A stretch of DNA of 32,003 nt. Origin: Clostridiales bacterium (GTDB lineage: Bacteria > Bacillota > Clostridia > Christensenellales > DTU072). The translations under genes and the position numbers were made by a program. Positions 11,801 to 31,771 of the stretch are shown piece after piece (the first letter of the stretch is position 1; every line of letters starts with the position of its first letter). A model generated the notes under the pieces. It saw only the letters and a list, made by a program, of their open reading frames with translations. It was not told the DNA's origin and searched no databases. Location: NCBI GenBank assembly GCA_012800525.1, contig JAAZJD010000085.1, positions 1 to 32,003 on the forward strand, written 5' to 3'.

Positions 11801-14800
11801 AATTAGTGTCTTAATTGAGTCAAAACAAACTACATATGGAAAAGGAATCGCTCCTTTGACATTTAAAGTTTCAGAATCTACACCACTTGAATATGGTCAA
11901 TCTGCAGACGTTTTAGGTGTTAAGTTAGAAAAATTAGGTGGAATAAATGTTGGTACATATCAAATTACGGGAAGCAAGTTGCCAGCAGGAAGCAATAACT
12001 ATTCACTTACATTTAGCGGCGCTCTTGGGACAATGGGTAAATATGAAATAGTAAAAGCTGATACTGAAATTGATGTCACATCAATATTGAAAGTTTATAC
12101 ATTTACAAATGAAACACAATCTGTTACAGGTGATGCGTCTCTCATTTTAAAGCAAACAGGAGATTACATTAACACTTTAGAGTATAGCAATAACACTTTT
12201 AAGGATGTTCCAGTTGATGGTATGGGTCAATCATATGGAACGCAAGAAGTTACTGTCTCAGTAAGTGGAAACCATAACTATAATCCAAAAGCAGTAAGTT
12301 TTGTAATTACAATCAATAAGGCAGCAACGACTATCACCGCTAACATTACAGATGAATACACATATGATGGTGAAACACAAACTGTAGTAGGGACTGTAAC
12401 TACAAATCAAGTTGGAGCATATCAATCTGCTATAACATATATAAATAACACTTTCAAAGATGTTCCAGTTGCAGAAGCTGGTGCAACATTTGGAACACAA
12501 ACTATGACAATTCAAGTTTGGGAATCTAGAAACTATTTGCCACAAACAAAAAATGTCACTATAAAGATTTTTAAAGCAACAGCTACAATAGATACTTCTC
12601 AAATGCTTGAAAGCTACACATATAACACAACTCAACAAGAAATATTAGGAGCCACATTAAGTCATGGTGAAACTACAATTACATATAGCAATAATACATT
12701 CACTAATGTTCCAACAGATGGATATTTAAATGTTGTAATGAATGCCGTATCTACAAGAAATTATTTAGCTACAAGTGCCACAAAACAAATCACAATAAAT
12801 AAAGCAAAGCAAATTATTAATGTTAGTGAAGTAAAAAGAGAGTACAAAAAGTTAGTAGATACATTACCGGTTACTGTAGATTCTGGCGCAAGTGTTCCAG
12901 ATGTAGCGCAAGTAATTAAATATGAAAACAATGTGTTTTATGCATGGGATGGTGAAGGTGGTTTAGATGGTGCTTCAGTTAAAATCTATGTAGAAGCAAC
13001 ACAAAATTATCTATATTCTGAATCCTTTGTAATCTTATTAGTCGACAAGATTGCATCAGTTATTGATATTTCTGGAGTTCTCAAAAATTATGTATATACT
13101 GGATCGACAATAACAATAGATACAGGAGCTGTATTGACTGTAGGCGATGAGGAAAATCAATTAATTCAATGGGAAAACAATGAGTTTACTACAGTAGCTG
13201 AAGGTAATGCACTAGAAGTTAGGGTTTTTGTTGCAGCATATGGTGATTATTCCGCTGCAGAAGTTAGATTTAGCATTAATGTTGAAAAGGCAAACAGTAT
13301 ATTGTCATTAGATCAAAGTGCCTTAGATTTTGTATATACCGGCTCGCTACAAACTGTTAAGCCTGTAAGTTTGACAAACCATAGCTGTAGAGAAGTTGAA
13401 TATGAAAATAACACATTTACTACAGTAGCTGAAGGAACTGCTTTAAGAATCAAAGCCTACGTTTCAGAAAGTGAAAACTATAAAGCAGCTGCAATTGAAA
13501 ATATTAGGATTAATGTTGAAAAAGCAGATACAAATATTGATTTACAGTATATGACAAAAGACTTTGTGTATACTGGTTTATTGCAACAAGCTGTTGGTGC
13601 AACGATGAATCATAGCCAAGCACCGTTGCAATACATAAATAATACCTTTGTAACTGTTGCAGATGGAAACGGAAAACGTGCTGAAGTTATAGTTCCAGAA
13701 AGTGCAAACTATAAAGGTGCAGCAGCATTTGTAATACTTAATGTTCAAAAAGCCACATACAATATGGTAGGCGTCAGTCTTGCAAACAAAATTGTTGACT
13801 ATAATGCAATGCAACACTCCTTGACAATATCTGGCATACTACCAAATGGCGTGACTGTCACATATTCAACATCAAAGCAAATTAATGCTGGAACATATGA
13901 TGTTATAGCTACTTTTAATGGTGATTTTGCAAACTATAATCAAATTGAAAATATGAGTGCTACATTAAAGATTAATAAAGTTGACTATAACTTTGCAGGA
14001 ATAAGTTTTGAAAGCAAAGAAAAGGTTTATAACGGAAAATACCAATCCTTAGAAATTACTGGAAATTTACCAATAGGCTTAGATAATTCAAGGCCAAACG
14101 TCATATATTCTGGTCAAAGAAAAGTCGTTGGTACAACTGCAATAGTAGCTTCTTTTTCAACTAGCTCAGTTAATTATAAAATTCCAGAAGGCTTAGCTAT
14201 TATGAATGCGAACTTAACAATTAAACCTTTAGAAATTATAGTTGCTACAGGTCAAATAAGAGTGAGTGTTCCAGTAGAAAATCTTGCTAGTTTTACACTC
14301 ACAGAATCTAACTACAAGATAGCAAATAAAGCTTTAGGGGATACTGTTAATATAACATACACATCGGAGTTGATTGAAGATGAGGACGGACCAGTTGGAA
14401 AAGCTTTTGCCAAGATGACCATTCTTTCAGTAGATAATGAAAACTACGCTTTGCCATCTAATCCCGAATTTTATATTGATGCAGCTATTAAGTATCCTAT
14501 TGATATTAGTGTTGGTGCACACTATTTAGAGTATGATGGTACGGAAAAACAATTTGATGTTACGGCAAAAATTAATAACATCGATGTGCCATATAGCGTA
14601 ATGTTTGAACAAGGGCATAGGCAATATAATAGTGCAATTGATGCTGGTGTTTACACTATGATAATTACAGTTGTCGATGAGTATGCAGGTAGAAAAGTTG
14701 TAGAAGAACCAATGCAAATAAATCGAATAGATACAACTTTAAGTATAGCAGGAAGGTTTACACAAACTTATGGAACATTTGAATTGTTTACAGCAAGTTT

Positions 14801-15911
14801 AGAAACTCCATATGAATTTAATGAAGCTGCAAGTTTAGAAATTACATATTCATTTAGTACAGCAATACCAGAGGCTGGTAATCATACAGTAACTGCATAT
14901 TTTGCAGGAAGCAAAAACTATGAAGAAAAAACCATAATAAAACCATTCATTGTAGAAAAGAAAAAGATTACTTTAAAGATTTCAGAAAACAATGAATATG
15001 TATATAACGGCGAAAGACAAAATATTCGTTATAGCTTATCATCTTTTGCTGCAGCAGATAGAAACATTGTCACACTAAATTATGGAGAAAATAATCCTTC
15101 TTCAATCGGTGAATATTCTGTCAATGTTACATTGAATAATCCAAACTATATTCTAGAAAATGTAGTAGGACCTCTTGAGATGAGTATTGTAAAGGCTCCA
15201 CTTGAGATATTTGTAGGCTATGTGTATGGAATTGAAGATAAAGAAATAGACTTTAATTTTGAATATATAGGTTTCGTTCCAGGTGAAGGTGCAGAAGATT
15301 TGGATAAGCTTCCAACAATTAGCAAAAAAGTTTATAAAGCAGGAAATTATGAAATTAAAGCTAGCGGTGCAGAATCTGAAAATTATGACATAAGCTATAT
15401 CCCGTTTGAGCTAGAAGTATATAGGAAAAATTTAACATTGAAAACTAAAGGTGAAGAAGTTACTATTACAGGAATGTATGGTGGGAATTCTAGCGTTAAA
15501 GTAGAAGAAGTTACAGGCGACGTGTTCTTCAATGAATTTTTCAGATTGACAAATTCAGTTACAGCAGCTTACAGAGTTGAAGTAGTAGGAGAACAAAATA
15601 CAGAAATTGATAATACTCCAAGGAAGGTATTGATTAAAAATAACAACATTAAAATAAATCCATTTGTTGGGGCATATTTTATAGATGCTCAAGGAAATAA
15701 AATAAAATTATCCAAACAAGATATTAGCAATGGTTATGTTGAAACAACCTTTGATGCAGATAGAGGATTTATCGTTGTTTATCAAAATCACTTATTATGG
15801 ATAATCTTAGGTTTAAGTGTCCTATTGATAGTTGTGATAACCATACTAACAAAGGCATTAACTCGTAAACGTGGCTCACGCCTTGCTTCAAAGTACAGAT
15901 GGCTCAGTTAA
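5841..15911 (+). CDS. P1: giant secreted, membrane-anchored MBG/YDG-repeat surface protein (about 3,356 aa from the ATG at 5841; ORF track starts at GTG 5805)
   Basis: Signal peptide MTKKIYRSKITKMLLFVLLALLALMVFFAFSPKSKITAHA; non-repetitive N-terminal domain; dozens of about 80-aa repeats of two types: YDG/MBG (…SKTYGEADPSL…GTYxIxxxxxxxxNYxITF…) and YNGxxQTxxGA…NNTFxxVP…NYxA…. Shared C-terminal domain (AYRVEVVG…GAYFID…), TM helix (WIILGLSVLLIVVITIL) and basic tail. AGAGGA precedes ATG 5841. Confidence 0.88.
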   Translation: MTKKIYRSKITKMLLFVLLALLALMVFFAFSPKSKITAHAYSFSGSYTNYSGGHNNGQTSTFSTINSVGSTGLASGCTRGQKWAYNQSSGADSDITSNDNNIRIDQGTSPDTRYALAFTTIQLHSSVTAAIAAGKVKMTFTSQVCTAGKGKTFSVFIAWGSGNIGIDGFTNTASAKSGDSTSESYVSQSATLTGAYSNVTAVRVGVQVKKEGIGRHMEVYAHQMVLERWVTGTVITPHSQSKTYDGNIAPLQWTATPGILAGNTFTPSWSGAGATAVNVGTHTLTLGGTVDGGSYYTYSFGSSTTVTINRRPVTATAAARSKTYGEADPSLDYSITSGSLVSGESLVGFLSRVSGEIVGTYAIERNTLINANNPNYDIAYVGANLTINKKPFTVTIQSKTITYGDTDVTLTVTPTVPSDTWAASSGSWATINASSLTRTGDRNAGTYTISKGASFDTNNSNYNLTVVGDGTATYTINQRGVTISAPTMSREYWSTKKAYETYTPTITYNPSSFNPAGAGAGIVAVSGTLNRNDGEDVAIYTINRGSYTDAANPNYSITFNSATYTITQFPIQVQPKANQSKVYGQGDPSFTYENLVYPTGGGAGYATLTGALARTGGNDVGFYNYGLGTFEAAGANPNYSITLMDNSGSIKFEIVKKDIEITVQGVNVTYDPTKTEANYQAMLGVVTPAAGVLEYSETLSVLNITLSKALGLSAATYAITPGYSSGNYNVTFVNANFVISKATRTINTSAMATTATYSGLTQTIAGATRSVDELPEFTDTEISYNGTNSFKDVPLGGTLEISMTLPASTNYLATSTTHTVTISKYAVTVTIADKESVYKTTPQPLTWTHTNLVNGEPNSNLGVSLYTGVTINTEVGTYQITGSYNSQNYLVTFSGTYSGGTSGTYSVTQAQSVITGGLGSYVYSGLQQTISGYVLNNEEATITYGNNTFTNVPVGGSLTITYYVAATKNYKGISTTSVDVPIAKAATEIKTNGVNLSYTYDGYMQTVSGATIEQIATPEVPVATIKYSNNTFTNVGTGSQTVTIYTDATQNYLAGNTTVDITISPAALSASINNASKTYGQGDPSFTFVVNSGLKGSDTAEGLGISLERVNTSNAVGTYDITKASQTNGNYAVTISTGTLTINAKAIQVQIKDQESVYRKSEKVLTVPKTGSNPEAVDEVNLTGQLVYTDTMGDLKIVLTRQGLSVVGEYPIEGSQGSGASGNYIVSFVGSYTGGTKGTYTITQAQRVINTNSVGRNYVYSGQQQTISGAFLDENNLDVGESQDIINVSNNTFTDVPQSHNQTVTFSVSETANFKAVTETVTVSIIPYHIKVNILDAESEYGQEPVVLDSDYWSLDESTPMLTGQLVSILGVSLNAPLVSSSSAIGSYPISGSWNNTLTNYTLQFLGTYQGGINGTYRITQATTIITIDIGEYTYNGFSQTVTGITANHSERTLEIGNNTFIDVPNSGGVPGRLDITYRMDASTNYKAVPLTTVSVFINRKPTTLDTSSMIKEYTYNGNTRTITGASNGHTGNHVASIQYENNSFRNVPADGYLDVIITSPANNNYLAATTTERITIKKAKTTLVIEDKSAYYGEDTKPLTAVLASGSSLQGGDKIEYLGLTLKKGVGTDVGTYDISCTGYTNGNYDITFNGSYGTGEEGKGKYIVTAKNISVTIANKESAYLATPEPLTWSLSVGSTMAYSESGSLLDIILTKQGENYVGEYSITGAQGESASENYNVSFVDGIYKITRITRTIDTSGMVLDRTYSGVEQVVEGAALSVVDPTGDPVIEYSNNRFTNVPESGTQRVDINVAASRNYEAVSTFRIINISKYQTTVTVANKTSEYKSETVPLTATFDSLAAGQNISVLNLNLSTEASNLKNAGEYVITATYSNSNYNVTINEGVYTITKVAVGLIADTKTVTYGSMQSLTFTLSGSLKAGDNIADLNVVLQRNPGQNVGTYPITLKSYDDTNYTFSYTGANYNIVAKPISVLIESKQTTYGKGIAPLTFKVSESTPLEYGQSADVLGVKLEKLGGINVGTYQITGSKLPAGSNNYSLTFSGALGTMGKYEIVKADTEIDVTSILKVYTFTNETQSVTGDASLILKQTGDYINTLEYSNNTFKDVPVDGMGQSYGTQEVTVSVSGNHNYNPKAVSFVITINKAATTITANITDEYTYDGETQTVVGTVTTNQVGAYQSAITYINNTFKDVPVAEAGATFGTQTMTIQVWESRNYLPQTKNVTIKIFKATATIDTSQMLESYTYNTTQQEILGATLSHGETTITYSNNTFTNVPTDGYLNVVMNAVSTRNYLATSATKQITINKAKQIINVSEVKREYKKLVDTLPVTVDSGASVPDVAQVIKYENNVFYAWDGEGGLDGASVKIYVEATQNYLYSESFVILLVDKIASVIDISGVLKNYVYTGSTITIDTGAVLTVGDEENQLIQWENNEFTTVAEGNALEVRVFVAAYGDYSAAEVRFSINVEKANSILSLDQSALDFVYTGSLQTVKPVSLTNHSCREVEYENNTFTTVAEGTALRIKAYVSESENYKAAAIENIRINVEKADTNIDLQYMTKDFVYTGLLQQAVGATMNHSQAPLQYINNTFVTVADGNGKRAEVIVPESANYKGAAAFVILNVQKATYNMVGVSLANKIVDYNAMQHSLTISGILPNGVTVTYSTSKQINAGTYDVIATFNGDFANYNQIENMSATLKINKVDYNFAGISFESKEKVYNGKYQSLEITGNLPIGLDNSRPNVIYSGQRKVVGTTAIVASFSTSSVNYKIPEGLAIMNANLTIKPLEIIVATGQIRVSVPVENLASFTLTESNYKIANKALGDTVNITYTSELIEDEDGPVGKAFAKMTILSVDNENYALPSNPEFYIDAAIKYPIDISVGAHYLEYDGTEKQFDVTAKINNIDVPYSVMFEQGHRQYNSAIDAGVYTMIITVVDEYAGRKVVEEPMQINRIDTTLSIAGRFTQTYGTFELFTASLETPYEFNEAASLEITYSFSTAIPEAGNHTVTAYFAGSKNYEEKTIIKPFIVEKKKITLKISENNEYVYNGERQNIRYSLSSFAAADRNIVTLNYGENNPSSIGEYSVNVTLNNPNYILENVVGPLEMSIVKAPLEIFVGYVYGIEDKEIDFNFEYIGFVPGEGAEDLDKLPTISKKVYKAGNYEIKASGAESENYDISYIPFELEVYRKNLTLKTKGEEVTITGMYGGNSSVKVEEVTGDVFFNEFFRLTNSVTAAYRVEVVGEQNTEIDNTPRKVLIKNNNIKINPFVGAYFIDAQGNKIKLSKQDISNGYVETTFDADRGFIVVYQNHLLWIILGLSVLLIVVITILTKALTRKRGSRLASKYRWLS

Positions 15912-16089
15912 ACATTAAAATTTTATAATAATATGTAAAAAAGTTTAGTAGCTTTTCAAAATGGTAAAACATTGTTTGTGTCGTGTTTCGCTTTGGAGTG
16001 GCTGTGATGAAAAAAAAGTAAAACTATTAATATAACAAGAGGAATAGCATATAAAAATACAGGGCAAACTAAATAAATACTTAATATGC

Positions 16090-19000
16090 ATGTTTTTAGC
16101 TTTGATTTTACTCATAGCTTTTTTTGCAGTATCCAAAATTTCTATAACTGCATTAGCAAAATCGCCAGTTACAGTTTCTACAAGTAATGTTGGAACATAC
16201 ACATTTACAGGGGGAGAGCAAACAATTACTGGATTTACAGTAGATAATGATGAAACGATTTTACAGTTTTCGAATCATAAATTTACCGATGTGCCAGAGG
16301 GTGGAACTTTAAAAGTTACATATTGGGCAGCTGAAACTACAAACTATGATGCAGTGCCAGCAACAGATTTTGATGTAACGATAAACAAAGCTACAACAGT
16401 AATATATACCGATAGCATTGAAAGGTCATATACATATAACTCGAATACAAGAACAATCAATAGCGGAGCTTCGACTAATCAAGTTGCGACAAGTAGTGTT
16501 CCAGTAGCAAGTATTCAATATTCCAATAACCAATTTAGAGACGTTCCAGAGGGTGGAAAGAAAACGATAGTAATTTCTACTCTAGCAACACAAAATTATT
16601 TGGCAGGAAACGCAACTGTTGAAATAACTATAAATCCATTTCAGATAAGTGGAAATATCATCAATGTAAGTAAAGTATATGGAGAAAGCGAAGGAGTGCT
16701 AGACTTTACTATTCCAGCAGGGCAATTGCTTGGATTAGATACAAAAGAAGGTCTAGGAATAACATTAGGGAGAACCCCTGCTGGAAATGGTGTAGGAACA
16801 TATACAATATCAAAAAATAGCCAAACAAGTAGAAACTATGCAGTCAATATGCCAAATGGAACATATACAATTTCACCTAAACCAATAACTCTAGTTGTTG
16901 AAAATAAAGAAAGTGCATATAAAGCTCCTAAGCAAAGTTTAAGTGTGAAGTTAGATGATGGGCATACATTGGTTGGTGGTGACAATTTAGAGATGCTTAA
17001 AGTTTTGTATTCTCCAATTAATGATACTTATGTTGGAGAATATCCAATTACGGCATATCAAAGTAGTGAAAAGAGCCCTAATTATACTGTAACATTTAAA
17101 GGCTCATATGGTGATGGGAATCAAGGTAAAGGCGTTTATAAAATAAATAAAATTTCAAGAACTTTAGTGAAATCTGAAAGTTTTGTTGAGGTGTTTACAT
17201 ATAATGGGGCACAACAAACAGCAGGGGGTGTTGTTTTATCTGAAGCAGACCCTGCAGGAGATCCAACGCTAGTATTTGTAGGAAATAAATTTACCGATTT
17301 TCCAGGAGGAGATGGAACTGTAACATTTACTGTTAGTGCAGCAGCATCTAGAAATTTTGATGCAGTTTCAGCGACATCATTTACTGTAACTTTAAATAAG
17401 AGAGCTGTAACTGTATTAATTGATTCTAAAACAAGAGAATATAAAAGCAATTTAACTGGAGGGCTAACATTTAGAATTTCATCTGCAACTCCACTTGCGC
17501 CAGGTCAATTGCCAGCTGTATTAAATGTTTCTCTTGAGTCATCTGTCATTTTTGGAAGTAATGCAGGAAACTATCCAATTATAGCTTCATATAACAATAG
17601 TAACTACAACGTAACTTTCAGTGGTGCATATGGTGATGGAAATCAAGGAAAAGGAAAGTATACGATAACTAAAGCTCCAATGTATATTATTGCAGACGGG
17701 AAACAAACAATATATGGTACTGATGTTAACTTAACATATACAATTGATACGCAAACTCCACTAAAACAGGGTGATACAAAGGAATACTTAAATGTGGTTT
17801 TTGAAAGAGATGAAGGCGCTGATGTCGGAACTTATAATATTTCATATGTTTCTGGAAATGATACAAATTATGCAATAGAAGTTAATGCTGATGCAAAATA
17901 TAGAATTTTACCAAAGGCAGTTAATGTCTATATTATTGATAAGGAAAAAGTATATAACGCTGGAGAAGAAGAGTTAGAATATGGAATAGATGCAAACACA
18001 CCGCTTGTATATGATGAAAATATAAGTGTGTTAAAGATTACATTAACAAGAGATATTGGCGAAATGGTTAATGTATATAAGATTAATGCAACTCAAGGTG
18101 CAGATAAGAGTAATAATTATACTGTAACATTTATTGGTTCATGGGGCGATGGAACAGAAGGAAAGGGAACATATACAATAAATAAAGCTCAATTAGAATT
18201 AAATATAAGTGGCGTTGAAGATGAATATACATATACAGGTAATCTGCAAACTGTAGATACTGGCGCCGTATTAGTTGATGAACAAGTAGGGCCATATCAA
18301 AGTACAATTCAATATTCAAATAATACTTTTACTACAGTAGCTGAAGGAAATGGCAAAAAGGTTAAAATTAGTATTGCGGGAAATCCGAACTATTTGGGAG
18401 ATGAAAAGGAAGTAACATTAATTGTAACAAAAGCTGATACTGTAATATATACAAATACATTAATAAATGAATATACATATAATGGAGCTGAGCAAACGGT
18501 ATTAGGCAGTGCCGTTACAAATCATATTGGTGTTAGCACTACTGTGCATTTTCAATATGATACTTTTACACAAGTACCAGAAAACTGCCCAGGTCAAAAT
18601 TATGGAACTCACATTGTTAGGTTATATACCTACGCAAATGACAACTATAATGCAGGAGAGCAAGATTTTGAAATAACTATATTCAAAAAGCAATCTTTAA
18701 TAAATATAGATTCTGTTGTTAAAGAATACACATATTCTCCAGCTGGCCATGAAGTAACTGGCGCAATATTAAATCATTCCGAAGCAAGCCTTGTATATGC
18801 AGGACACGAAATAACAGATGTTCCAACAAATTGTCCAGGTGAAGATTATGGAACACAATTAGTTACCGTAAGTGTATCATATAGTCGCAACTATACAAGT
18901 GTGTCAATGAGTTTCACTGTAAAAATAAACAAAGCTCAGCAAACAATAGATACATCCTTAATTCAAACTTCATATAAATCTGACCCTAGTCCATTCCCAA

Positions 19001-22000
19001 TTGAAATTGTAAAAGATGGAATATACGGTTATGCAACTGTCCCTGATGAGGCACAAACAATATCATATAGTAATAATGTTTTTCAGAATAAAGAAGAACT
19101 TGAAGCAAATGGCAATGTGGTGATTACTGCTGTAGGAAATCAAAATTACATTGAAGTGGTAACAACAGTTTTGTTGGTTATAGATAAATATGTTCCTAAA
19201 TTTAATTTAGATAATGTGACGACAAGTTTCATCTATACAGGTGACATTCAAAAAATTGAAAGTGGAGTGACGCTAGATGAAGGAACAGAATATCAAAAGG
19301 CAAATATAACATATTCAAATAATACTTTTGTAACTGTTGCACAAGGGAATGGAAAACAAGTGACAGTATCTGTGCCAGCAGATGGGGATTTTATAGCACA
19401 TTCTGTAACTTTTCCAATAACGGTTTTAAGGGCAGACACTATAATTACAGTGCCAGAAGCGATAAATTATAAATACAATGGAAAGGAGCAAACAGCACAA
19501 GATTTTGCTTCTATTAACCACTTAGAAGGAGCTATAACATACTCATATAATACCTTTACCACAGTAGCTGAAGGGAATGCTTTAAATATTTTAATTACTG
19601 TAGCAGAAACAGCAAATTATAAAGCTGCTTCAATGCCAAATGTAAAAATAAATGTAGAAAAAGCTGACACTGAAATTAGCCTTGCATTGATGAGAACTAC
19701 TTTTACATATAATGGAAATCTTCAAACGGCAGATGGTGCAAGTGTTAATCATACAGAAAATACTCAAATTACATATGAAAACAATACATTTACTACTGTA
19801 AGTGAAGGGAATGGTAAAGAAGTTACTATAAGAGCATCTGCAACTGCAAACTATAAATCTGCGGTAACTACAACTACCTTAACAGTAAATAAAGGCACAT
19901 ATGATATGTCTACAGTTGGATTTATTGATAAAGAGGTAGAATATAATGGTGAGTTGCATTCTTTAACAATTTTTGGGCAATTACCAGGCGAAGAAGAGGA
20001 AATAACAGTAACATATAGTTCAAATGGAGAAATAAATGCTGGCACTTATCCTATCTCAGCAAGCTTTGAAGGAGATTCAAATAATTATAATTCAATCCCC
20101 TCTCTTAATGCCACATTAACCATAACAAAGGCAACATATGATTTTTCAAACTGTATGTTCTCAAATAAAGAATATACCTATAACGGCAAATATCAAAGCA
20201 TCGTATTTGAAGGAAATATTCCCGAAGGCTACGATGGCTCAGTTCCAAAGATTGAATATGATGGATCTCTTAAAAATGTTGGAAGTATTGAAATTACTGC
20301 AACAGTAAGCTCTTTATCTGATAATTATGAAATAAAAGTTACAGAATATTATGCAACATTGACAATTAGCAAAAAAGGAATTGATGTTTCTAAAACTGCA
20401 AACAAAAGATATTTTAGTTCATATGAAAATGTAGACACTATAAATTTAACATCAGAATATTATACAATAAGTGGACTATGTACGGGGGATGATGTTGACC
20501 TAACATACACTGCTGAATTTGAAGATAAAAGTGCAGTTGGAAAAGCTTTCATACGAATGCTAGTTACTGCAATAGATAATATTAACTATGAACTACCAGT
20601 AATGCCTTACGAAATACAAATAGATGCAGCAATTGTATATCCTATAAATTTAAATATTATTACAACATCGTTTGTATTTGATAATACACCTAAAGTTATG
20701 CCAATAAGTGCAAAAATAGCTGGATATGATATTGATGAAAATAATATCAGCATTCACTTCAGACAAGGTAACGATGTCATGACAGAAGCGATAAATGCTG
20801 GTACATATACGATGGTTGTCACAGCTATAGATGAGTATGCAGGAGTAAAAACCGAAGAGTTAGATATGATAATAGAACGGGCGCCATCGAACATAATTTT
20901 ATCTGGTAACTTTAATCAAATCTATACTCAGTTTGAGCAATTTGCAGCAAGTTTACAAGTAGATGCTGATGATGGCACTGCTCATAGGATTCATATTTCA
21001 TATTCCTTTAGAACATCAATACCTGTTGTTGGAACTCATAGTGTTAGTGCTAGATTTGATGGCTCTTTAAATTATGAACCAAGTGAAGTAAGTAGGTATT
21101 TTAGTGTGTCGCCAACAAAGGTTAGCATATCATTTAGAGAAAATAATAGGTATCCATATACTGGACGCGAGCAAAAAGTGGAGTATACTCTAACTAATCA
21201 AAATCCAGATGACAAAGATATTGTTTTAGTAACTTATGGCACTAATAATCCTATAGGTTTAGGGGAGTATGGCGTTAATTATGTAGTGAATAATCCAAAC
21301 TATGAAATTGTAGGAGTATTTGGTCCTCAAAGCATAATAATTACAAAAGCAAGGTTGGAAATTTCAATAAAACCTATTGTAGCACTAGAAAATAAAAAGC
21401 TTGAATTTGAATTTGAATTCAAGGGTTTTGTAGCGGAGGATACCGAAGGCGTGCTAAAATTTAGCCCCAAAATAGATGGAGATACTTTTGCGGCTGGCAG
21501 TTATACCATTGTTCCTTATGGCGCAAGTGCAGACAATTATAATATTGTATATAAGCCATATAATTTAATTGTTTATCAAGAAAACTTAACTACTAGTGTA
21601 GGTAATAAAGGAAGTATTACAGTTACAGGGCATTATGATTCAAATTTCGAGTTAGATGTTAAACCGGTAGCTGGATTTGACTTTTTCGATTCAATGTTTA
21701 AGTTCTCAAACATTATTCAAAATGCATATAGAGTAGAGGTTGTTGGAGATGGCGAAGCTCCTGAAGGTACAAGGTTAATATATCAAGATGAATCACTTAA
21801 ATCTTCAATTTTGAATGGTGCATACTTTATCAATGACAAAGGAGAAAAGACAAAGCTTGCAGCAAGTGATCTAAGAGATGGGGTTATTGAAACAAAGTTT
21901 GCAGGTCAAAGTGGATATATCGTAGTATATAGAAACTATACAGTAGTTTATGTGATTGTTATTGTGGCAGTTGCAACAGCTTTAATTATTTTATATCTAA

Positions 22001-22059
22001 CTGCAAAGACTGGAAGACGCGGTTCTCCTAAGACAAAAGGCTTTAGAAAATATCGTTAA
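16090..22059 (+). CDS. P2: giant MBG-repeat surface protein paralogue (1,989 aa from the ATG at 16090); homology extends upstream of that ATG to about 16048
   Basis: Hydrophobic leader MFLALILLIAFFAVSKISITALA, then directly into repeats collinear with P1 from about residue 920 onwards. Shared C-terminal domain (AYRVEVVGDG…GAYFINDKGEKTKL…ETKFAGQSGYIVVY), TM helix and RRGSPKTKGFRKYR tail. Upstream in-frame codons read HIKIQGKLNKYLIC, matching the P3 N-terminus. Confidence 0.8.
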   Translation: MFLALILLIAFFAVSKISITALAKSPVTVSTSNVGTYTFTGGEQTITGFTVDNDETILQFSNHKFTDVPEGGTLKVTYWAAETTNYDAVPATDFDVTINKATTVIYTDSIERSYTYNSNTRTINSGASTNQVATSSVPVASIQYSNNQFRDVPEGGKKTIVISTLATQNYLAGNATVEITINPFQISGNIINVSKVYGESEGVLDFTIPAGQLLGLDTKEGLGITLGRTPAGNGVGTYTISKNSQTSRNYAVNMPNGTYTISPKPITLVVENKESAYKAPKQSLSVKLDDGHTLVGGDNLEMLKVLYSPINDTYVGEYPITAYQSSEKSPNYTVTFKGSYGDGNQGKGVYKINKISRTLVKSESFVEVFTYNGAQQTAGGVVLSEADPAGDPTLVFVGNKFTDFPGGDGTVTFTVSAAASRNFDAVSATSFTVTLNKRAVTVLIDSKTREYKSNLTGGLTFRISSATPLAPGQLPAVLNVSLESSVIFGSNAGNYPIIASYNNSNYNVTFSGAYGDGNQGKGKYTITKAPMYIIADGKQTIYGTDVNLTYTIDTQTPLKQGDTKEYLNVVFERDEGADVGTYNISYVSGNDTNYAIEVNADAKYRILPKAVNVYIIDKEKVYNAGEEELEYGIDANTPLVYDENISVLKITLTRDIGEMVNVYKINATQGADKSNNYTVTFIGSWGDGTEGKGTYTINKAQLELNISGVEDEYTYTGNLQTVDTGAVLVDEQVGPYQSTIQYSNNTFTTVAEGNGKKVKISIAGNPNYLGDEKEVTLIVTKADTVIYTNTLINEYTYNGAEQTVLGSAVTNHIGVSTTVHFQYDTFTQVPENCPGQNYGTHIVRLYTYANDNYNAGEQDFEITIFKKQSLINIDSVVKEYTYSPAGHEVTGAILNHSEASLVYAGHEITDVPTNCPGEDYGTQLVTVSVSYSRNYTSVSMSFTVKINKAQQTIDTSLIQTSYKSDPSPFPIEIVKDGIYGYATVPDEAQTISYSNNVFQNKEELEANGNVVITAVGNQNYIEVVTTVLLVIDKYVPKFNLDNVTTSFIYTGDIQKIESGVTLDEGTEYQKANITYSNNTFVTVAQGNGKQVTVSVPADGDFIAHSVTFPITVLRADTIITVPEAINYKYNGKEQTAQDFASINHLEGAITYSYNTFTTVAEGNALNILITVAETANYKAASMPNVKINVEKADTEISLALMRTTFTYNGNLQTADGASVNHTENTQITYENNTFTTVSEGNGKEVTIRASATANYKSAVTTTTLTVNKGTYDMSTVGFIDKEVEYNGELHSLTIFGQLPGEEEEITVTYSSNGEINAGTYPISASFEGDSNNYNSIPSLNATLTITKATYDFSNCMFSNKEYTYNGKYQSIVFEGNIPEGYDGSVPKIEYDGSLKNVGSIEITATVSSLSDNYEIKVTEYYATLTISKKGIDVSKTANKRYFSSYENVDTINLTSEYYTISGLCTGDDVDLTYTAEFEDKSAVGKAFIRMLVTAIDNINYELPVMPYEIQIDAAIVYPINLNIITTSFVFDNTPKVMPISAKIAGYDIDENNISIHFRQGNDVMTEAINAGTYTMVVTAIDEYAGVKTEELDMIIERAPSNIILSGNFNQIYTQFEQFAASLQVDADDGTAHRIHISYSFRTSIPVVGTHSVSARFDGSLNYEPSEVSRYFSVSPTKVSISFRENNRYPYTGREQKVEYTLTNQNPDDKDIVLVTYGTNNPIGLGEYGVNYVVNNPNYEIVGVFGPQSIIITKARLEISIKPIVALENKKLEFEFEFKGFVAEDTEGVLKFSPKIDGDTFAAGSYTIVPYGASADNYNIVYKPYNLIVYQENLTTSVGNKGSITVTGHYDSNFELDVKPVAGFDFFDSMFKFSNIIQNAYRVEVVGDGEAPEGTRLIYQDESLKSSILNGAYFINDKGEKTKLAASDLRDGVIETKFAGQSGYIVVYRNYTVVYVIVIVAVATALIILYLTAKTGRRGSPKTKGFRKYR

Positions 22060-22405: not shown

Positions 22406-22458
22406 GTTTTTGCACACTCTAAAGGTTTTGTATATGCTCTTTGAGGTAGAAAAGTTTA

Positions 22459-23499
22459 ATGGGGGCAAAGCATATAAAAACGCAAGCTAGAAAACTTAAT
22501 AAGTATATTTTATACATTCTCATAGGCTTAGTACTGCTTATGGCTATTTTTGCTATTCCAAAAACTTCAATTAAAGTATTTGCATGGCAAGCTCCTGGGC
22601 ATAGTTGGAATTTCAGACATTTTACTGGAAATAATCCAGCTATGGATAATGACCCACAAACTTCAATGGGGAGTGGCAATTTTAATGGTATGTCTAATAT
22701 GATGCTCTCTAATGTTGGTTTGTATAATTTATATGATACATCGTATACACAAGCTGGTGCAGGTGTTAATGATTTATATAGATTGCAAGCCTTGGATGTA
22801 GAGGCCTCTTCTGGACCAAATCATCAAGAATGGTGTAGTGGCAGTGCTTGGCTTGCGCATGGTTCAAAAAGTTGGGTTTCTAACTTTGGAAGCGGGCAGC
22901 CAACTTCATTTTTCAAAGGTGACTATTCTAACTTGAGTGGACAATATATGTACAATAAAAACACTCATAGAACTATTTTCTTTACAACCATAAAGTTATC
23001 TCCAAATATTATTAATGGTTTAAAAAACGGAACTATTGAAATAATATTTTCTGCATATGGAGAAAATAAGAATTATTTTGATGCTACTCACCAAGTAAGT
23101 ACTGATCAATATACTGGTTCATTTATAACTCTTGGAAAATATGCATTACCAGCTACAGGTGATGAACCAGTAACTCACCAAAACAATAAATATATATATG
23201 ATTCTACTTCTTGGCGCGATTTGCATAATTTCCAAACAATTTATGGAAACAATTCAGGTGATGCATATTATCAAATTTTAGATGTTCCAGGAGGCACACA
23301 GCGAGCAACAGGAGTAGGGGGACTTGGTAACCTTTATAATGGTGGCGGAAGGTCATATTTTGTTTCAAAACTTGGGCATAACAACAAGGCATATCCAACA
23401 GGGAGTGGAATTGATGAGTATGACTCTATTAGAATAGGTATGTATTTCATTAGGTATGTATTTCATAGATGGGAAAAGCGAGTCTACTCAAATTCTTAA
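22459..23499 (+). CDS. P3a: signal peptide plus N-terminal head domain of the third giant surface protein; frame broken at the 16-bp duplication
   Basis: Signal peptide MGAKHIKTQARKLNKYILYILIGLVLLMAIFAIPKTSIKVFA. N-terminal domain shares motifs with P1 (RTIFFTTIKLSPNIINGLKNGTIEIIFSA versus YALAFTTIQLHSSVTAAIAAGKVKMTFTS). The last residues (RYVFHRWEKRVYSNS) are out-of-frame sequence. Confidence 0.8.
   Translation: MGAKHIKTQARKLNKYILYILIGLVLLMAIFAIPKTSIKVFAWQAPGHSWNFRHFTGNNPAMDNDPQTSMGSGNFNGMSNMMLSNVGLYNLYDTSYTQAGAGVNDLYRLQALDVEASSGPNHQEWCSGSAWLAHGSKSWVSNFGSGQPTSFFKGDYSNLSGQYMYNKNTHRTIFFTTIKLSPNIINGLKNGTIEIIFSAYGENKNYFDATHQVSTDQYTGSFITLGKYALPATGDEPVTHQNNKYIYDSTSWRDLHNFQTIYGNNSGDAYYQILDVPGGTQRATGVGGLGNLYNGGGRSYFVSKLGHNNKAYPTGSGIDEYDSIRIGMYFIRYVFHRWEKRVYSNS
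23435..23466 (+). repeat. Perfect 2 x 16-bp tandem duplication disrupting the P3 reading frame
   Basis: taggtatgtatttcat (23435-23450) is immediately repeated (23451-23466). Deleting one unit joins the two ORFs as …DSIRIGMYFIDGKSESTQILNSGMYNMQLEV…. Confidence 0.95.
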
Positions 23500-26400
23500 C
23501 TCTGGTATGTACAATATGCAACTTGAAGTAAGATCAAAAGCACCAATTACAGTAACCTTTGATAATCAACAAAAAGAATATGGTGATCCAAATCCAGCAA
23601 TGACTGCAACAGCAACAGGACTTATTGGCAGTGACACTGTAACTAGTGTGACAGGCAGTTATAGCTGCGACGCAACATCACCAGTGGGTAGCTATACGGG
23701 TAGTGCTACAGGCTATACTTTAACAAATGGAAATCAAGCTTACTATCCAAATGTTACTTTTGTAAATACTAGTCCCACTTTGACTGTTAATCAACGGAAC
23801 ATATCAATAACCTCGCAAAGTTTAAGCAAACTTTATGGAGCAGCAGATCCTACCCATACATATACTGTTACTTCTGGAAGTGTAGTTAATGGTGATACTA
23901 TTGGACAGATAACTAGAGCTAGCGGAGAAACGGTCGATACTTATGCCTATTCTTTAACTTCGCCTAACTCGAATTACAACATAACATTTACTTCTACAAA
24001 TTTTACAATCAATAAAAGACCAGTGACAATTACACCAGATGCCTTATCTAAAGTACAAGGAAATTCTGATCCTACTTTGACATATGCCACAAACTTAGGT
24101 TCATGGGCACCTCTAACTGGTGCTTGGGCTGATTTTGCAGGTGAATTATCTAGGGATCCTGGTGAAACTCAAGGTACATACAATATTTTACAAAATACCC
24201 TTACAAATATAAACAACTCAAACTATGATATAACTTTTACAAGCGGTGTTAAATTTACAATTACAGCGCCAAAAGCAACAAGAACCATAACTTATACAGG
24301 ACCTTCATCATTACAATATAATGGTTCACTACAAGCATTTACTGGAGCAACATTAAGCCATTCAGATGATAATGATACGATTAGTTATAGCGGTAATACA
24401 TTTACCGACGTTCCAGCAAGTGGCAAATTAAACTTTACGATTTCGGCACCAGAATCTACAAACTATCAAGCTTGCAGTTTGGATGTTGAAGTATCCGTTA
24501 CAAAGATAGCTTTAACAATAGCAATAAATAATGCAACAAGTGTATATAGGGCAACATTAGATACATTAACTTCATCATTAACCACTGGAACTTTAGCAGG
24601 TGGTCAAGATGCAGGCAAGACATATAATGTTGTTTTGAATCTAAATTTAACAACCACAGCAACAACAACATCAAATGTCAATACATATCCTATAAGTGGC
24701 AATTATACAAACGGAAACTATGATGTAACTTTTACAGGTTCATATACGGGTGGAACTCAAGGCACTTATACAATTACGAAAGCAACTCCAGTTATTACAA
24801 CGACAGGCGTAAATAAGACATACAAATATAACGGATTAGAGCAAGAAGTAAATAGTGGAGCAACAACAGATCAGGTTGGCGATTATATTTCTCCAATTGC
24901 ATATAGCAATAACAAATTTACAAATGTAGGTACAGGCACACAGGTAGTAACAATTTCAACAGCAGAAAACCAAAACTATAATGCAGCAACTACAACTGTA
25001 ACTATAACTATTTCTAAGATTGCCTTGACAGTATCAATTGCTGATAAAACAAGTGTATATAAAGAATCAATAGTAGAATTAACATCAACATTAACAACTG
25101 GAACTTTAGCAGGTGGGCAAGATGCAGGCAAGACATATAATGTTGTTTTAAATTTAACTTTATCAACCACTGCAACTTCAAGTTCAAATGCAAACACATA
25201 TCCAATAACAGGAAGTTATACAAACGGAAACTATGATGTAACATTTACTGGTTCATATAGTGGAAATACTCAAGGCACATATACAATTGCAAAAGCAGAT
25301 AGTGTTGTAAGTGGAACTTTGGGACCATATACATATACAGGGTCACAACAAACAATTAATGGATTAACCTTAAATCACACGGAAACAACAATCCAATATA
25401 GTAATAACACTTTTACAAATGTTCCAGCAGGTGGAATACAACAAGTAACCTACCATGTAGCACCAACCACTAACTACAATGGAATTGGAAATACCACAGT
25501 CGATGTAACAATTAATAAAGCAGACAGTGTAATAAGCGGTTCATTAGGTACATATACATACAATGGAAGTGAGCAAACAATAACAGGACTAACTTTATCT
25601 AAAGGTGATGGAACGATAGTATATATAAACAACAAATTTACAGATGTGCCAACAACAGGAACACAAAAAGTAAAATACAGTGTAGCAGCAACAAACAACT
25701 ATAATGGAATCGCAGAAACTGAAGTTGATGTAACTATTTCTAAGCTAGCTATAACAGTAACGATAGAAGATAAGAGCAGTGTATATGGTTCAGGGTCTTT
25801 AAGCACATTGACATCGACAGTACCAGCAGGAGCATTGGTAGGACAAGATGCAAGTGGTTCACATATTACAGTATTAGGAATTAGTTTATCAACTGATGCA
25901 AAAACAAATTCAAATGCAGGCACCTATGCAATAAGTGGATTATATGATAGTGGTAACTATGCAGTAACTTTTTATGGTTCATATAGTGGAAACACTCAAG
26001 GTACATATACAATAGATAAAGCAGATAGTGTAATAAGTGGAAATTTAGGTACATATACATTTAGTGGAGCAGAGCAAACGATAACAGGACTAACGTTATC
26101 TACAGGTGATGGCACGATAGTATATACAAACAACAAATTTACAGATGTACCAACAACAGGAACACAAAAAGTAAAATACAGTGTAGCTCCAACGACTAAC
26201 TATAATGGAATAGCAGAAACTGAAGTAGAAGTAACGATAAACAAGGCATCTACAGTAATAGTAACGACTGGAGTAAACAAGACATATACATATAATGGAT
26301 TAGAGCAAGAAGTAAATAGTGGAGCAACGACAGAGCAAGTAGGAACAGCAGGTGTAGCAGTAGCTGCTATAAAATACAGTAACAATACTTTTATAAATGT

Positions 26401-29400
26401 AGGTACAGGCAAGCACACAGTAACGATATATACAGATGCAACCCAAAACTATCTAGCAGGAAACACGACAGTAGAAATAACGATATCAGCAAGAGAAATC
26501 ACAGTAACGATTGGAGATAAGGGCAGTGCATATGGAGCTGATATAGTAACATTGACTTCTAGTGTAACAAGTGGAAGTTTAGCAGGTGGACAAGATGCAG
26601 ATAAGACTCATGTTGAAGTATTGAACTTAACTTTAAGTACTACAGCAACAAAGACATCAAATGTAGGCACATATCCAATAAGTGGGTCATATGATAATGG
26701 GAACTATGCTGTAACATTTAGCGGTTCATATACAGAAAACACTACAAAAGGGACATATACAATAGGGAAAGCGTCAGTAACTGCAACAATATCTGATGCA
26801 AGTAAGACATATGGTCAAAACGATCCAACATTTGATTTTGTAGTAAACTCAGGTCTAGTAAATGGTGATGAAAAAGCAGCTTTAGGCATCACATTAGAAA
26901 GAATAAACACATCAAATGCAGTAGGTGAATATACAATTACGAAAGCATCGCAAACAAATAATAATTATGAAGTAACGATGACAAGTGGCAAATTGACCAT
27001 AAATGCAAAAGCGATAGAGATAAAAGTAGAAGATAAGACAAGCATATATGGTTCAAGTGTAGCAGATTTAAGCTGGGTATTAAATACTGGTTCTAGCATG
27101 GCATATGAAGAAGTAGCAAGTGCAGTATTGGTAATTAATTTAAGTTGTGCAGCATCAAGCAGTTCAAATGTAGGCGAATATGCAATAAGTGGAGCAGTAG
27201 ATGCAACTTCATCAAAGAATTATTCAATCAGTTTTGTAGGAACATATGCAAGTGATAATACAAAAGGCACATATGAAATAACACCAGCGACAGTAGATGT
27301 CACAATCTCAAATGCAAGCAAGACATATGGTCAAGATGATCCAAGCTTTGGCTTTACAGTAACATCAGGTTTAGTAAATCCAGATACCGCATCTTCGTTG
27401 GGATTAACATTAGTAAGAGCAAATAGTACAGTACAAACGGTAGGCACCTATGCAATAACGAAAGATAGTCATACAAATAATAACTATCTTGTAAATGTTA
27501 CCCAAGATGGTGTATTTACTATAAATGCAAAAGCGATAGAGGTAAAAGTAGAAGATAAGACAAGCGTATATGGTCAAGCGGTAGTAGATTTAAGTTGGGT
27601 ATTAAATACTGGTTCTAGCATGGCATATAGTGAGGATGCAAGCACAGTATTGGTAATTAATTTAGCATGTGGAGTAACGACAAGTAGTCCAAGAGGAACA
27701 TATCCAATCACAGGAACAGTAGATGAAAATTCATCAGATAACTATAGTATAAGTTTTGTAGGTTCATATGCAAGTGACAATACAAAAGGCACATATGAAA
27801 TTACTCAAAGAGGAGTAACAGTAAAAGCAAATTCTGACAGTAGAATATATTGGTCAATGAAACAAGAAGATGAAACATATTCTGCAACAATAACATATGC
27901 AGGTGACTTTGACCCAGCAACAGCAGGGGAAGGAATTGTAGCCGTTAATGTAGTACTAGAAAGAGAAAATGGCGAGGATGTTAATACATATTCAATACTA
28001 GCAAGTGCCGATATGGCAGCAAATAATCCAAACTATGATATTACATTCACAGCTGGCACATATGAAATTACAAAGTTTAATATTTCAATTACACCAACAA
28101 CTGGTCAAAGCAAGACATATGGAGATGCAGATCCAGCAACATATACATATGAAGACTTAATATATCCAGAAGGCACAGGATATGCAACATTAGTTGGTGC
28201 ATTAGGAAGAGCTGCAGGAGAAGATGTAAATACCTATGCATACAATATTGATTCATTCAAAGCAGTAGACAATCCAAACTACAACATAACTTTGGTAGAA
28301 GGTAAAACATTTGCAATTAATAGAAAGTCAGTAACAATTACCCCAACTGCTTTATCTAAACAATATGGAAATCTAGATCCAGAATTGACGTTTGGAAACA
28401 ATTTAGGAGAATGGAAAGCATCAAGTGACAGTTGGGCAGCGATAACAGGAGTGTTATCAAGAATTCCTGGCGAAACAGTCAATACATATGCTATTACTCA
28501 AGGTGAAGTAACAAATGCAAATAATGGAAATTATGACATAACCTTTGTAGATAGTGTTGTATTTACAATCACAAGAAGGGATGTAACAATTACTCCAGAT
28601 GATAATCAAGGTAAAGAATATTATTCATGCCTACAAGCAGATGAGGGTGCTTTAACATATACTCATACATCATTGAAAGATGTGAGTTTTGTAGACTTTA
28701 CACCAGATGTGTTAGATGGAAAACTTGCAAGAGTAGAAGGAGAAGATGCTGGTAATTACTTAATTAATTTAGGAACATTAATAAATTATAATAATCCTAA
28801 TTACAACTTAAATATAGATGCAGTTAACTATGTAATTAGCAAGTTTAAGGTTCAAGTAACAGCAGATAGTGGAAAAGAAAAAGTTTATGGTGAAGTTGAT
28901 CCAGTATTTACATATACAACTGATAGCATGCCAGCGGTTGAAGGGTATAAAGCTTTAGAGGGTGCATTAACTAGAAAGAATTTAACCATACAAACCGTCG
29001 GAGATTATCAAATATTGCAAGGTACTTTAACAAATACCAAAAATTCTAACTATGATATCACTTTTGTATCTGCATCTTTCCAAATTACTAAAAAAGCAGT
29101 AACTATTACGCCAGATACTCTATCTAAACAATATGGAAATCTAGATCCAGAATTGACGTTTGGAAACAATCTAGGAGAATGGAAAGCTGATGAGACAGGT
29201 AGCTGGGCTGCGTTTGTAGGGCAACTATCTAGAAACGACGGCGAAATTGTAGGAGAATATGGCATTTTACCAGGTACACTTGTAGAGTATAATAATCCAA
29301 ACTACGATATCAACTTCATTGACACAGTTAAGTTTACAATTACTAGAAGAGATATAACTGTAACACCAAATTCTAATCAAAGCAAAGAGTATTATGAGTG

Positions 29401-31771
29401 TTTGCAAGTTGCAGAATCTGACTTGACATACACCCATAGTGCATTAAAAGATGCTAATTTTGAAAGCTTTACACCAAAAGCTTTAGAGGGAACACTTGCA
29501 AGAGCAGAAGGCGAGGATGCTGGAGATTATTTAATTAATTTAGGTACATTAACAAATGATAAAAACTCTAATTACAACATAAGCATTGAAACAGAATATT
29601 ACGTAATTAGACCATTTGAAGTTGAAATAACTCCAAATAGTGGACAAGAAAAAGTTTATGGTGAAGTTGATCCAGTATTTGCATATACAACTGATAGGAT
29701 GCCAGCAATAGAAGGATATAAAGCTTTAGAAGGAAAACTAACTAGGGCAAACATAGATGAACAAAATGCTGGTAATTATCAAATTTTACAAGGAAATCTT
29801 ACAAACGCAAAAAATTCAAACTACAACATTACATTTTCAGTGTCAGTGGTAACTTTCAAGATTAATCCAAAGTTCATTGAAATTAAAATCGCAGATAAAA
29901 GTAGTCTAGAAGGTGATGAGCCAGTCCAATTGACATGGACGTTAAATGATGGCTTCTCAATGGCTTATGAAGAAAATGCTGAAACTGAGCTAATAATAAC
30001 TTTGGTTGCTATTGATGTAACATCTAGCTCTGCTGTTGGCGAATATGAAATTATCGGAACAGTTGAGGCTAGCTCTTCTAATAATTATTTGATTACGTTT
30101 GTTGGAAATCATATAGATGGCGATAAGGGTATTTATACAATTATAGCAGCAATGCTTTTAAATCCTGTATTTAACTTAAGTTACTTTAATACACACATAT
30201 ACACATATACAGGTGAGACTCAAACAGTTGGTAGTGGAGCAATACTAGAAATCGGAACAGCTAACCAAAAAGCAAATATAAAATATTCAAATAATACATT
30301 TACAACAGTAAGTGAAGGAAATGCATTACTAGTTAAAGTCTCTGTTGAGGCAGATGGAGAATATAATGCATATTCTACTACTTTTAGAATTAAAGTTCAA
30401 AAAGCTGAGACACAAATTAATTTATCTTCAATGAAAACAGTGTTTACATATAATGGACAACTTCAAACAGCTAGCGGTGCAAAAGTAAATCATTTAGAGA
30501 ATGCAAATATCACATACGAAAATAATACATTTACAACTGTAAGCGAAGGAAATGGAAAGGTTGTTAAAATCAAAGCTGCAGCAACAGCAAACTATAAAGC
30601 TAAAGAAGCAACTGTTACTTTAACCGTAAATAAGGCAACTTATGATTTTTCTCATTGTACATTTGAAAATCAAGAAAAAGAATATAATTGTGAAGAACAA
30701 ATGATTGAAATTGAAGGAAAGCTTCCTGTAGGTTTTGATGGCTCTAAACCAAAAGTTGAATACATTGGTTCCCTTAAAAATGTTGGATGCGTTGAGGTTA
30801 AAGTAAAAATAACATCAACATCAGAAAACTATATGATACCTGAAATTGATGCTGAACGTTGTGCAATGCTTACAATTTGCAAAAAGAGGATTACCATTTC
30901 TGTTAAACCTTTCTTAGCAATAGAAAACAAAAAATATAATTTTGAATTTGATATAGATGGTTTACAAGGCACTGATACTATGGAGATATTTGATGTTAAA
31001 CCAGAAGTAGAGGGTTATGGCACTTCAATAGAGGTTGAGGCTGGTAGATATACAGTTAAACCGTTTGGTGCAAGTGCAACCAATTATGAAATTTCATATT
31101 TGCCATATACTTTAATAGTGCATAAAGAAAACTTAACATCAGATTTAGGAAATAATGTAGACCTTACAATTACAGGATATTATGATCCTAGCTTCCAATT
31201 AGAAGTTACTCCAGATAAAGATTTTGAATTTGATGACCCGCTATCAAAGATATTACATATCGTACAAAAATCATACAAAGTAAGAGTAGTTGGCGGTGAA
31301 GGATTAGAACTTCCAGAAAGTATCAAATTAATATATAGGGACAATACACTTAAATCTTCTATTTTAAATCGTGCATATTGGATAAATGAAAATGGTGAAA
31401 AGATTAATCTTTCAGCCAAAGATGTTGTTAAGGAAGGATTCATTGAAACAAAATTTACAGGTGAAAGTGGAGAATTAATAATATATAAAGACTATACAGT
31501 AATTTATATAATAGCTTCTGTAAGCATATTGGTTTTCTTAGTTGTTTTATACTTAATCTATAGAGAATATAGAGATAAGAAAAAAAGAGCAGCACAAAAA
31601 GCAGAAGCTACCGAAGAGGCAAGAAAGGCAAATATAAGGAAAAATGTAAAGAGTAAAGAGGATAAACAACCTAAAGTCAAGGAAGATAAAAACAAAACGG
31701 TTGAACTTAAAGATCAAAAAGATTTGCCAAAAACTGAAGAATCAAAAGATTCAAACGAAAAAAAAGAATAA
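23456..31771 (+). CDS. P3b: repeat stalk, C-terminal domain, TM and charged tail of the third giant surface protein (2,771 aa; lacks its own signal peptide)
   Basis: Starts MYFIDGKSESTQ…, the in-frame continuation of P3a when one 16-bp unit is removed. Many YDG/MBG repeats; C-terminal domain (SYKVRVVGGEG…RAYWINENGEKINL…ETKFTGESGELIIY) homologous to P1/P2; TM YTVIYIIASVSILVFLVVLYLIY; long Lys/Glu-rich tail. Confidence 0.88.
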   Translation: MYFIDGKSESTQILNSGMYNMQLEVRSKAPITVTFDNQQKEYGDPNPAMTATATGLIGSDTVTSVTGSYSCDATSPVGSYTGSATGYTLTNGNQAYYPNVTFVNTSPTLTVNQRNISITSQSLSKLYGAADPTHTYTVTSGSVVNGDTIGQITRASGETVDTYAYSLTSPNSNYNITFTSTNFTINKRPVTITPDALSKVQGNSDPTLTYATNLGSWAPLTGAWADFAGELSRDPGETQGTYNILQNTLTNINNSNYDITFTSGVKFTITAPKATRTITYTGPSSLQYNGSLQAFTGATLSHSDDNDTISYSGNTFTDVPASGKLNFTISAPESTNYQACSLDVEVSVTKIALTIAINNATSVYRATLDTLTSSLTTGTLAGGQDAGKTYNVVLNLNLTTTATTTSNVNTYPISGNYTNGNYDVTFTGSYTGGTQGTYTITKATPVITTTGVNKTYKYNGLEQEVNSGATTDQVGDYISPIAYSNNKFTNVGTGTQVVTISTAENQNYNAATTTVTITISKIALTVSIADKTSVYKESIVELTSTLTTGTLAGGQDAGKTYNVVLNLTLSTTATSSSNANTYPITGSYTNGNYDVTFTGSYSGNTQGTYTIAKADSVVSGTLGPYTYTGSQQTINGLTLNHTETTIQYSNNTFTNVPAGGIQQVTYHVAPTTNYNGIGNTTVDVTINKADSVISGSLGTYTYNGSEQTITGLTLSKGDGTIVYINNKFTDVPTTGTQKVKYSVAATNNYNGIAETEVDVTISKLAITVTIEDKSSVYGSGSLSTLTSTVPAGALVGQDASGSHITVLGISLSTDAKTNSNAGTYAISGLYDSGNYAVTFYGSYSGNTQGTYTIDKADSVISGNLGTYTFSGAEQTITGLTLSTGDGTIVYTNNKFTDVPTTGTQKVKYSVAPTTNYNGIAETEVEVTINKASTVIVTTGVNKTYTYNGLEQEVNSGATTEQVGTAGVAVAAIKYSNNTFINVGTGKHTVTIYTDATQNYLAGNTTVEITISAREITVTIGDKGSAYGADIVTLTSSVTSGSLAGGQDADKTHVEVLNLTLSTTATKTSNVGTYPISGSYDNGNYAVTFSGSYTENTTKGTYTIGKASVTATISDASKTYGQNDPTFDFVVNSGLVNGDEKAALGITLERINTSNAVGEYTITKASQTNNNYEVTMTSGKLTINAKAIEIKVEDKTSIYGSSVADLSWVLNTGSSMAYEEVASAVLVINLSCAASSSSNVGEYAISGAVDATSSKNYSISFVGTYASDNTKGTYEITPATVDVTISNASKTYGQDDPSFGFTVTSGLVNPDTASSLGLTLVRANSTVQTVGTYAITKDSHTNNNYLVNVTQDGVFTINAKAIEVKVEDKTSVYGQAVVDLSWVLNTGSSMAYSEDASTVLVINLACGVTTSSPRGTYPITGTVDENSSDNYSISFVGSYASDNTKGTYEITQRGVTVKANSDSRIYWSMKQEDETYSATITYAGDFDPATAGEGIVAVNVVLERENGEDVNTYSILASADMAANNPNYDITFTAGTYEITKFNISITPTTGQSKTYGDADPATYTYEDLIYPEGTGYATLVGALGRAAGEDVNTYAYNIDSFKAVDNPNYNITLVEGKTFAINRKSVTITPTALSKQYGNLDPELTFGNNLGEWKASSDSWAAITGVLSRIPGETVNTYAITQGEVTNANNGNYDITFVDSVVFTITRRDVTITPDDNQGKEYYSCLQADEGALTYTHTSLKDVSFVDFTPDVLDGKLARVEGEDAGNYLINLGTLINYNNPNYNLNIDAVNYVISKFKVQVTADSGKEKVYGEVDPVFTYTTDSMPAVEGYKALEGALTRKNLTIQTVGDYQILQGTLTNTKNSNYDITFVSASFQITKKAVTITPDTLSKQYGNLDPELTFGNNLGEWKADETGSWAAFVGQLSRNDGEIVGEYGILPGTLVEYNNPNYDINFIDTVKFTITRRDITVTPNSNQSKEYYECLQVAESDLTYTHSALKDANFESFTPKALEGTLARAEGEDAGDYLINLGTLTNDKNSNYNISIETEYYVIRPFEVEITPNSGQEKVYGEVDPVFAYTTDRMPAIEGYKALEGKLTRANIDEQNAGNYQILQGNLTNAKNSNYNITFSVSVVTFKINPKFIEIKIADKSSLEGDEPVQLTWTLNDGFSMAYEENAETELIITLVAIDVTSSSAVGEYEIIGTVEASSSNNYLITFVGNHIDGDKGIYTIIAAMLLNPVFNLSYFNTHIYTYTGETQTVGSGAILEIGTANQKANIKYSNNTFTTVSEGNALLVKVSVEADGEYNAYSTTFRIKVQKAETQINLSSMKTVFTYNGQLQTASGAKVNHLENANITYENNTFTTVSEGNGKVVKIKAAATANYKAKEATVTLTVNKATYDFSHCTFENQEKEYNCEEQMIEIEGKLPVGFDGSKPKVEYIGSLKNVGCVEVKVKITSTSENYMIPEIDAERCAMLTICKKRITISVKPFLAIENKKYNFEFDIDGLQGTDTMEIFDVKPEVEGYGTSIEVEAGRYTVKPFGASATNYEISYLPYTLIVHKENLTSDLGNNVDLTITGYYDPSFQLEVTPDKDFEFDDPLSKILHIVQKSYKVRVVGGEGLELPESIKLIYRDNTLKSSILNRAYWINENGEKINLSAKDVVKEGFIETKFTGESGELIIYKDYTVIYIIASVSILVFLVVLYLIYREYRDKKKRAAQKAEATEEARKANIRKNVKSKEDKQPKVKEDKNKTVELKDQKDLPKTEESKDSNEKKE
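24590..25280 (+). repeat. Two-domain DNA repeat, offset about 513 bp
   Basis: actttagcaggtggtcaagatgcaggcaagacatataatgttgttttgaat (from 24590) recurs nearly identically from 25103; protein TLAGGQDAGKTYNVVLNL in both. Confidence 0.75.
25520..26235 (+). repeat. High-identity domain repeat, offset about 501 bp
   Basis: gcaga[c/t]agtgtaataag…aacaacaaatttacagatgt[g/a]ccaacaacaggaacacaaaaagtaaaatacagtgtagc… at 25520 and again at 26021; protein DSVISG…TITGLTLS.GDGTIVY.NNKFTDVPTTGTQKVKYSVA. Confidence 0.8.
26777..27820 (+). repeat. Two-domain super-repeat, period 522 bp (174 codons)
   Basis: ataaatgcaaaagcgatagag at 26999 and 27521; flanking protein [SKTYGQ.DP.F…INAKA][IE.KVEDKTS.YG…DLSWVLNTGSSMAY…ASDNTKGTYEIT] occurs twice. 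Confidence 0.8.
28321..29858 (+). repeat. Three-domain super-repeat, period about 768-771 bp
   Basis: Exact 50-mer tatctaaacaatatggaaatctagatccagaattgacgtttggaaacaat at 28353-28402 and 29121-29170. Collinear modules LSKQYGNLDPELTFGNNLGEWK…, SKEYY.CLQ…TYTH…LKD…, and EKVYGEVDPVF.YTTD.MPA.EGYKALEG.LTR follow in both copies. Confidence 0.85.

Follow-up and report, generated by a model that had tools for sequence, protein, structure and literature searches.

The giant surface-protein gene P3 is split by a perfect 16-bp tandem duplication, which we regard as probably a recent, spontaneous mutation that inactivated the gene and is revertible in principle, rather than as an evolved switch. The stretch of DNA analyzed (hereafter, the window) is the complete 32,003-bp contig C43 of assembly G000 (1.78 Mb, 109 contigs). 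Genes for a TetR-type regulator and for an MMPL transporter precede the giant genes P1, P2, and P3, and at its end the contig enters a gene whose beginning reads like thiamine diphosphokinase. Coordinates of the features discussed are collected in Table 1.

Table 1. Features of the P3 locus and its giant paralogues, in window coordinates
Feature	Position	Strand	Basis
P1, giant MBG_2 paralogue in this cluster, intact (listed ORF begins at GTG 5805)	5841..15911	+	
P2, MBG_2 paralogue; 5' end without a start codon at the place matching P3's	16090..22059	+	
P3 head ORF, 346 aa; orphan head preceded by a signal peptide (KHIKTQARKLNKYILYILIGLVLLMAIFAI...KVFA)	22459..23499	+	ORF list
ATAG, recurring at 23465-23468; 15-bp spacing in the one-copy context	23434..23437	+	
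Copy 1 of the 16-bp unit TAGGTATGTATTTCAT	23435..23450	+	sequence and tandem-repeat check
Overlap with both frames open, 62 nt	23438..23499	+	read from sequence
Copy 2 of the 16-bp unit, perfect; downstream frame shifted +1 relative to the head	23451..23466	+	
P3 body ORF, 2,771 aa; 18 MBG_2 stretches, C-terminal transmembrane (TM) segment and charged tail	23456..31771	+	

The duplication and the gene that it splits

At 23435–23466, the unit TAGGTATGTATTTCAT is present exactly twice, head to tail, with 100% identity between the copies and no partial third copy beside the array (2.0 copies), as a sequence-only reading of this DNA had reported. The unit does not occur again in the 1.78-Mb assembly, and the array is the sole perfect tandem with a period of at least 10 in the window. 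Perfect tandems with a period of at least 16 were absent from Markov-shuffled windows (orders 1 to 3, 300 each), and composition leads to an expectation of 5e-5 perfect repeats of at least 16 bp per window.

The P3 head ORF runs through the array and stops 33 bases 3' of it, and its last ~16 residues, those past copy 1, are out of frame. The body, in the +1 frame relative to the head, has neither a signal peptide of its own nor a good Shine-Dalgarno sequence at its ATG. Its match to MBG_2 (YGX type, PF18676) reaches 497.9 bits against a curated cut-off of 25, which places it among the MBG_2 giant surface proteins together with P1 (12 matched stretches) and P2 (4). The head, in contrast, is an orphan with no Pfam match, and an AlphaFold model of the head alone was uninformative (pLDDT 33). 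Third-position GC is low both 5' and 3' of the break; this is the signature of coding sequence in the cluster and is shared by P1 and P2. A match between the P3 and P1 heads was considered as proof that head and body were ancestrally joined and was rejected as too weak, with 4 of 300 shuffles scoring equally well.

Several features of the surrounding sequence were recorded. The P3 leader contains a small GC-rich hairpin followed by T5 (22388–22406), a terminator-like arrangement ~50 bases upstream of the start codon, and promoter-like sites in the region are not commoner than in shuffles. P1 begins ATGACAAAAAAAATA (5841–5853), placing an A8 tract immediately 3' of its start codon; as a slippage site this tract is more classical than the 16-bp array, yet such tracts are common in AT-rich signal peptides. 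In P2 (16037–16092), a good ribosome-binding sequence, AAGAGGA, is present but no ATG, GTG, or TTG stands at the place matching the P3 start. The P2 frame instead contains a TAG at 16045 and then a well-spaced ATA at 16051, and its first ATG (16090) falls within the signal peptide. This gene may be crippled, or it may start at a rare codon.

Copy number and reading frame

We counted the head frame for arrays of one to seven units. With one copy it is open for 3,098 codons, in agreement with the earlier proposal that removal of a copy fuses both ORFs into a product of ~3,098 aa. With two copies, the assembled state, it is open for 346, and a single surface-protein gene is divided by the frameshift into ORFs of 346 and 2,771 aa, again as that reading had described. 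With three or more copies (counted up to seven) the head frame stops after 336 codons, because TAG is read in frame at the very start of the third copy. One copy alone is thus ON, and two to seven copies are all OFF. Four copies, previously expected to be in frame, do restore the frame count, but the TAG of the third copy leaves them OFF.

Lying within the head-coding part of P3, the duplication would, by shifting the frame, silence P3, a giant MBG-repeat surface protein anchored in the membrane, in the genotype as assembled. The most that two-copy cells would produce is a 346-aa head, secreted but lacking the TM anchor; the body lacks a signal peptide. From the two-copy allele, the head could still be released in soluble, secreted form. 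Slippage that removes one copy would restore the P3 frame at a low rate, an event made feasible by the copies being perfect and adjacent. We infer from this arrangement that the lesion has cost P3 its function and that it can revert.

The loss of function would be bypassed if programmed +1 ribosomal frameshifting let the two-copy allele yield the complete protein. The two frames overlap at 23438–23499, the only site where a ribosomal shift could join head and body, and the required shift is indeed +1. Reading of the overlap, however, identified no recognized +1 slippery signal, the perfect duplication alone accounts for the shift, and shifted translation would put an unrelated peptide into the head. 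We consider this explanation exceedingly improbable.

The frame count also bears on whether P3 belongs to an evolved contingency locus, in which the second 16-bp copy would be repeatedly gained and lost under selection, with P3 ON at one copy and OFF at two or more. The array is an intragenic tract (two 16-bp units) whose copy number alters the frame, the gene is of the right class (a secreted, TM-anchored giant surface protein), the break comes early, between head and repeats, with the body frame intact, and slippage switches of surface structures occur in gut commensals, as in the pili of Bifidobacterium breve (PMC9187656). The array nonetheless has two copies only and forms no long tract, and the in-frame TAG of the third copy leaves one expression-compatible copy number where several would be expected. 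Together with the absence of comparable arrays from relatives and the presence of a like-sized, neutral-looking intergenic duplication in the same genome (both described below), these properties make an evolved contingency locus unlikely. Also quite unlikely, in our view, is a one-sided binary switch in which one copy would give an anchored giant adhesin-like protein and more than one a secreted soluble head; since the third copy opens with a stop codon, expansions of such a switch would never leak back ON.

Age, origin, and genomic background of the break

Across its 2,771 codons, the P3 body contains no further stop or frameshift. Given its codon make-up, about 4% of substitutions in the body create a stop, and a neutral body frame would probably be expected to acquire one by about 0.9% divergence. 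Because the body codons are still open, the break appears to be either recent or purged and remade or frequently repaired, possibilities that these data do not separate.

The intact body also argues against permanent pseudogenization, in which P3 would be one of several decaying genes of the cluster, with no return. The adjoining P2 lacks a canonical start codon and carries an in-frame TAG where P3 starts, and such genes do get lost, as the giant MBG gene of the relative G018 is split in its head region (L105 of contig C27, 12370–12466), apparently by a small, simple indel. With 2,771 body codons free of further damage, we find permanent decay of P3 very unlikely.

At the exact 16-bp breakpoints there is no microhomology (0 bp), and the duplication is therefore not a textbook slippage product. 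Possible origins are a blunt template switch or, in view of the recurring ATAG (Table 1), a 15-bp duplication plus one added base (T), the second of which leaves some room for sequence error. The true genome could hold one copy, or a 15-bp in-frame duplication, with P3 intact; the assembly is fragmented into 109 contigs, and one T is all that separates the observed sequence from a 15-bp duplication on the ATAG microhomology. Against an artefact of sequencing or assembly, 32 bp fits well inside a short read, so the copy number can be read by an assembler without guesswork. Perfect tandem duplications this long are not produced spuriously by k-mer assemblers, and the repeat is exact across both copies. 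An artefact is, on this evidence, distinctly unlikely.

A survey of about 600 kb of other stretches of G000 provided a same-genome background. Tandem repeats in long ORFs with units of at least 12 bp have unit lengths that are multiples of 3, barring one 13-bp pair, which sits in an intact ORF. A second perfect two-copy 16-bp tandem, TTCATTTTAGTTATCA, lies at 2229–2260 of L130 (G000:C21), between the convergent 3' ends of genes read as a malic enzyme and EF-G. Because this tandem is intergenic and neutral-looking, the genome evidently makes 16-bp duplications without any coding switch. The same genome also contains arrays of 12-bp repeats lying partly in ORFs and partly in intergenic DNA (L147, C10:40001-60000, 4774–5061; L056, C1, 4525–4695; L062, C7, 6377–6521). 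On the minus strand of C83, a 3,134-aa giant ORF (24257–33658 of the joined stretch L054+L055) ends without the C-terminal TM segment present in its neighbors.

The P3 head was absent from all 58 relatives' genomes searched, a set containing no other species of the genus, and 396 genomes of the order contained no convincing homologue (one marginal match, E 0.005). Neither the head in genome_contigs nor the junction pattern in viral_contigs was found. The comparison of repeat conservation accordingly covered paralogous giant genes only, the P3 head having no homologue to compare. In the family, giant MBG_2 ORFs are commonplace, and at about 40 MBG-gene loci in 16 relatives there was no non-3n duplication splitting a giant gene; the P3 break is an exception among the family members surveyed.

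The ON/OFF phase switch put forward by the sequence-only reading is thus upheld in its duplication, frameshift, and gene split, but its status as a switch is weakened by a minimal two-copy array, by ON expression at copy number 1 alone, by the neutral-looking intergenic 16-bp duplication in G000, and by relatives' giant genes lacking such arrays. A recent inactivating mutation, which that reading had listed as an alternative, fits better than a maintained contingency locus.

Comparison with known systems and implications

The closest parallels to a recent, revertible duplication are in Streptococcus pneumoniae, in which cap3A, cap8E, and tts undergo reversible tandem duplications (Waite 2001, 2003, as cited in PMC4243769 and PMC4022640). 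In those capsule genes, as in P3, a tandem duplication breaks an ORF and perfect adjacent copies allow precise reversion; like cap3A, P3 carries a perfect, adjacent, non-3n duplication within an otherwise intact ORF. P3 differs in that its product is a giant surface protein, its bacterium is uncultured, and the gene is known from a two-copy assembly. The expected reversion for insertions of up to 9 bp is at most ~1e-5 (PMC4022640), and the rate for the 16-bp unit may be somewhat higher than that. The P3 lesion is probably a mutation caught in the act, behaving like the reversible pneumococcal capsule-gene variants.

Other systems share single aspects of the locus. Slippage at an intragenic G-tract in the pilus genes of B. 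breve fuses two ORFs (PMC9187656), and in such simple-sequence-repeat contingency loci, as in P3, repeat number decides whether a surface gene reads as one ORF or two. Those loci, however, are built of numerous short units and pass through every frame, whereas P3 has two 16-bp units and higher copy numbers that are all OFF; the Bifidobacterium pilus tracts are, moreover, long homopolymers supported by population data, and P3 is known from one assembly. In fission yeast, ssp1 acquires microhomology-mediated tandem duplications (Dan 2021, as cited in PMC13207564) that, like the one in P3, are short and intragenic and can revert, as we expect of P3; the exact breakpoints in P3 lack microhomology, and the organisms belong to different domains of life. 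Promoter tandem repeats of Mycobacterium tuberculosis, with units of about 55 bp, vary in copy number (PMC12817950). They are long-unit tandems as in P3, with variation seen within a population, but they lie in promoters and come with population data, whereas the P3 array is intragenic, frame-shifting, and drawn from one assembly.

For claims of sequence switches in general, checking whether the frame stays open at higher copy numbers offers a cheap filter. If one- and two-copy alleles do not coexist, P3 serves as a warning: a perfect short duplication found in a surface gene of a single assembly is what an ordinary recent mutation would be expected to look like. If the array is instead maintained by selection in this uncultured, commensal-type bacterium, it would be a long-unit contingency locus, and if one- and two-copy alleles coexist, a simple switch that can be read from sequence would act on giant surface proteins in uncultured bacteria.
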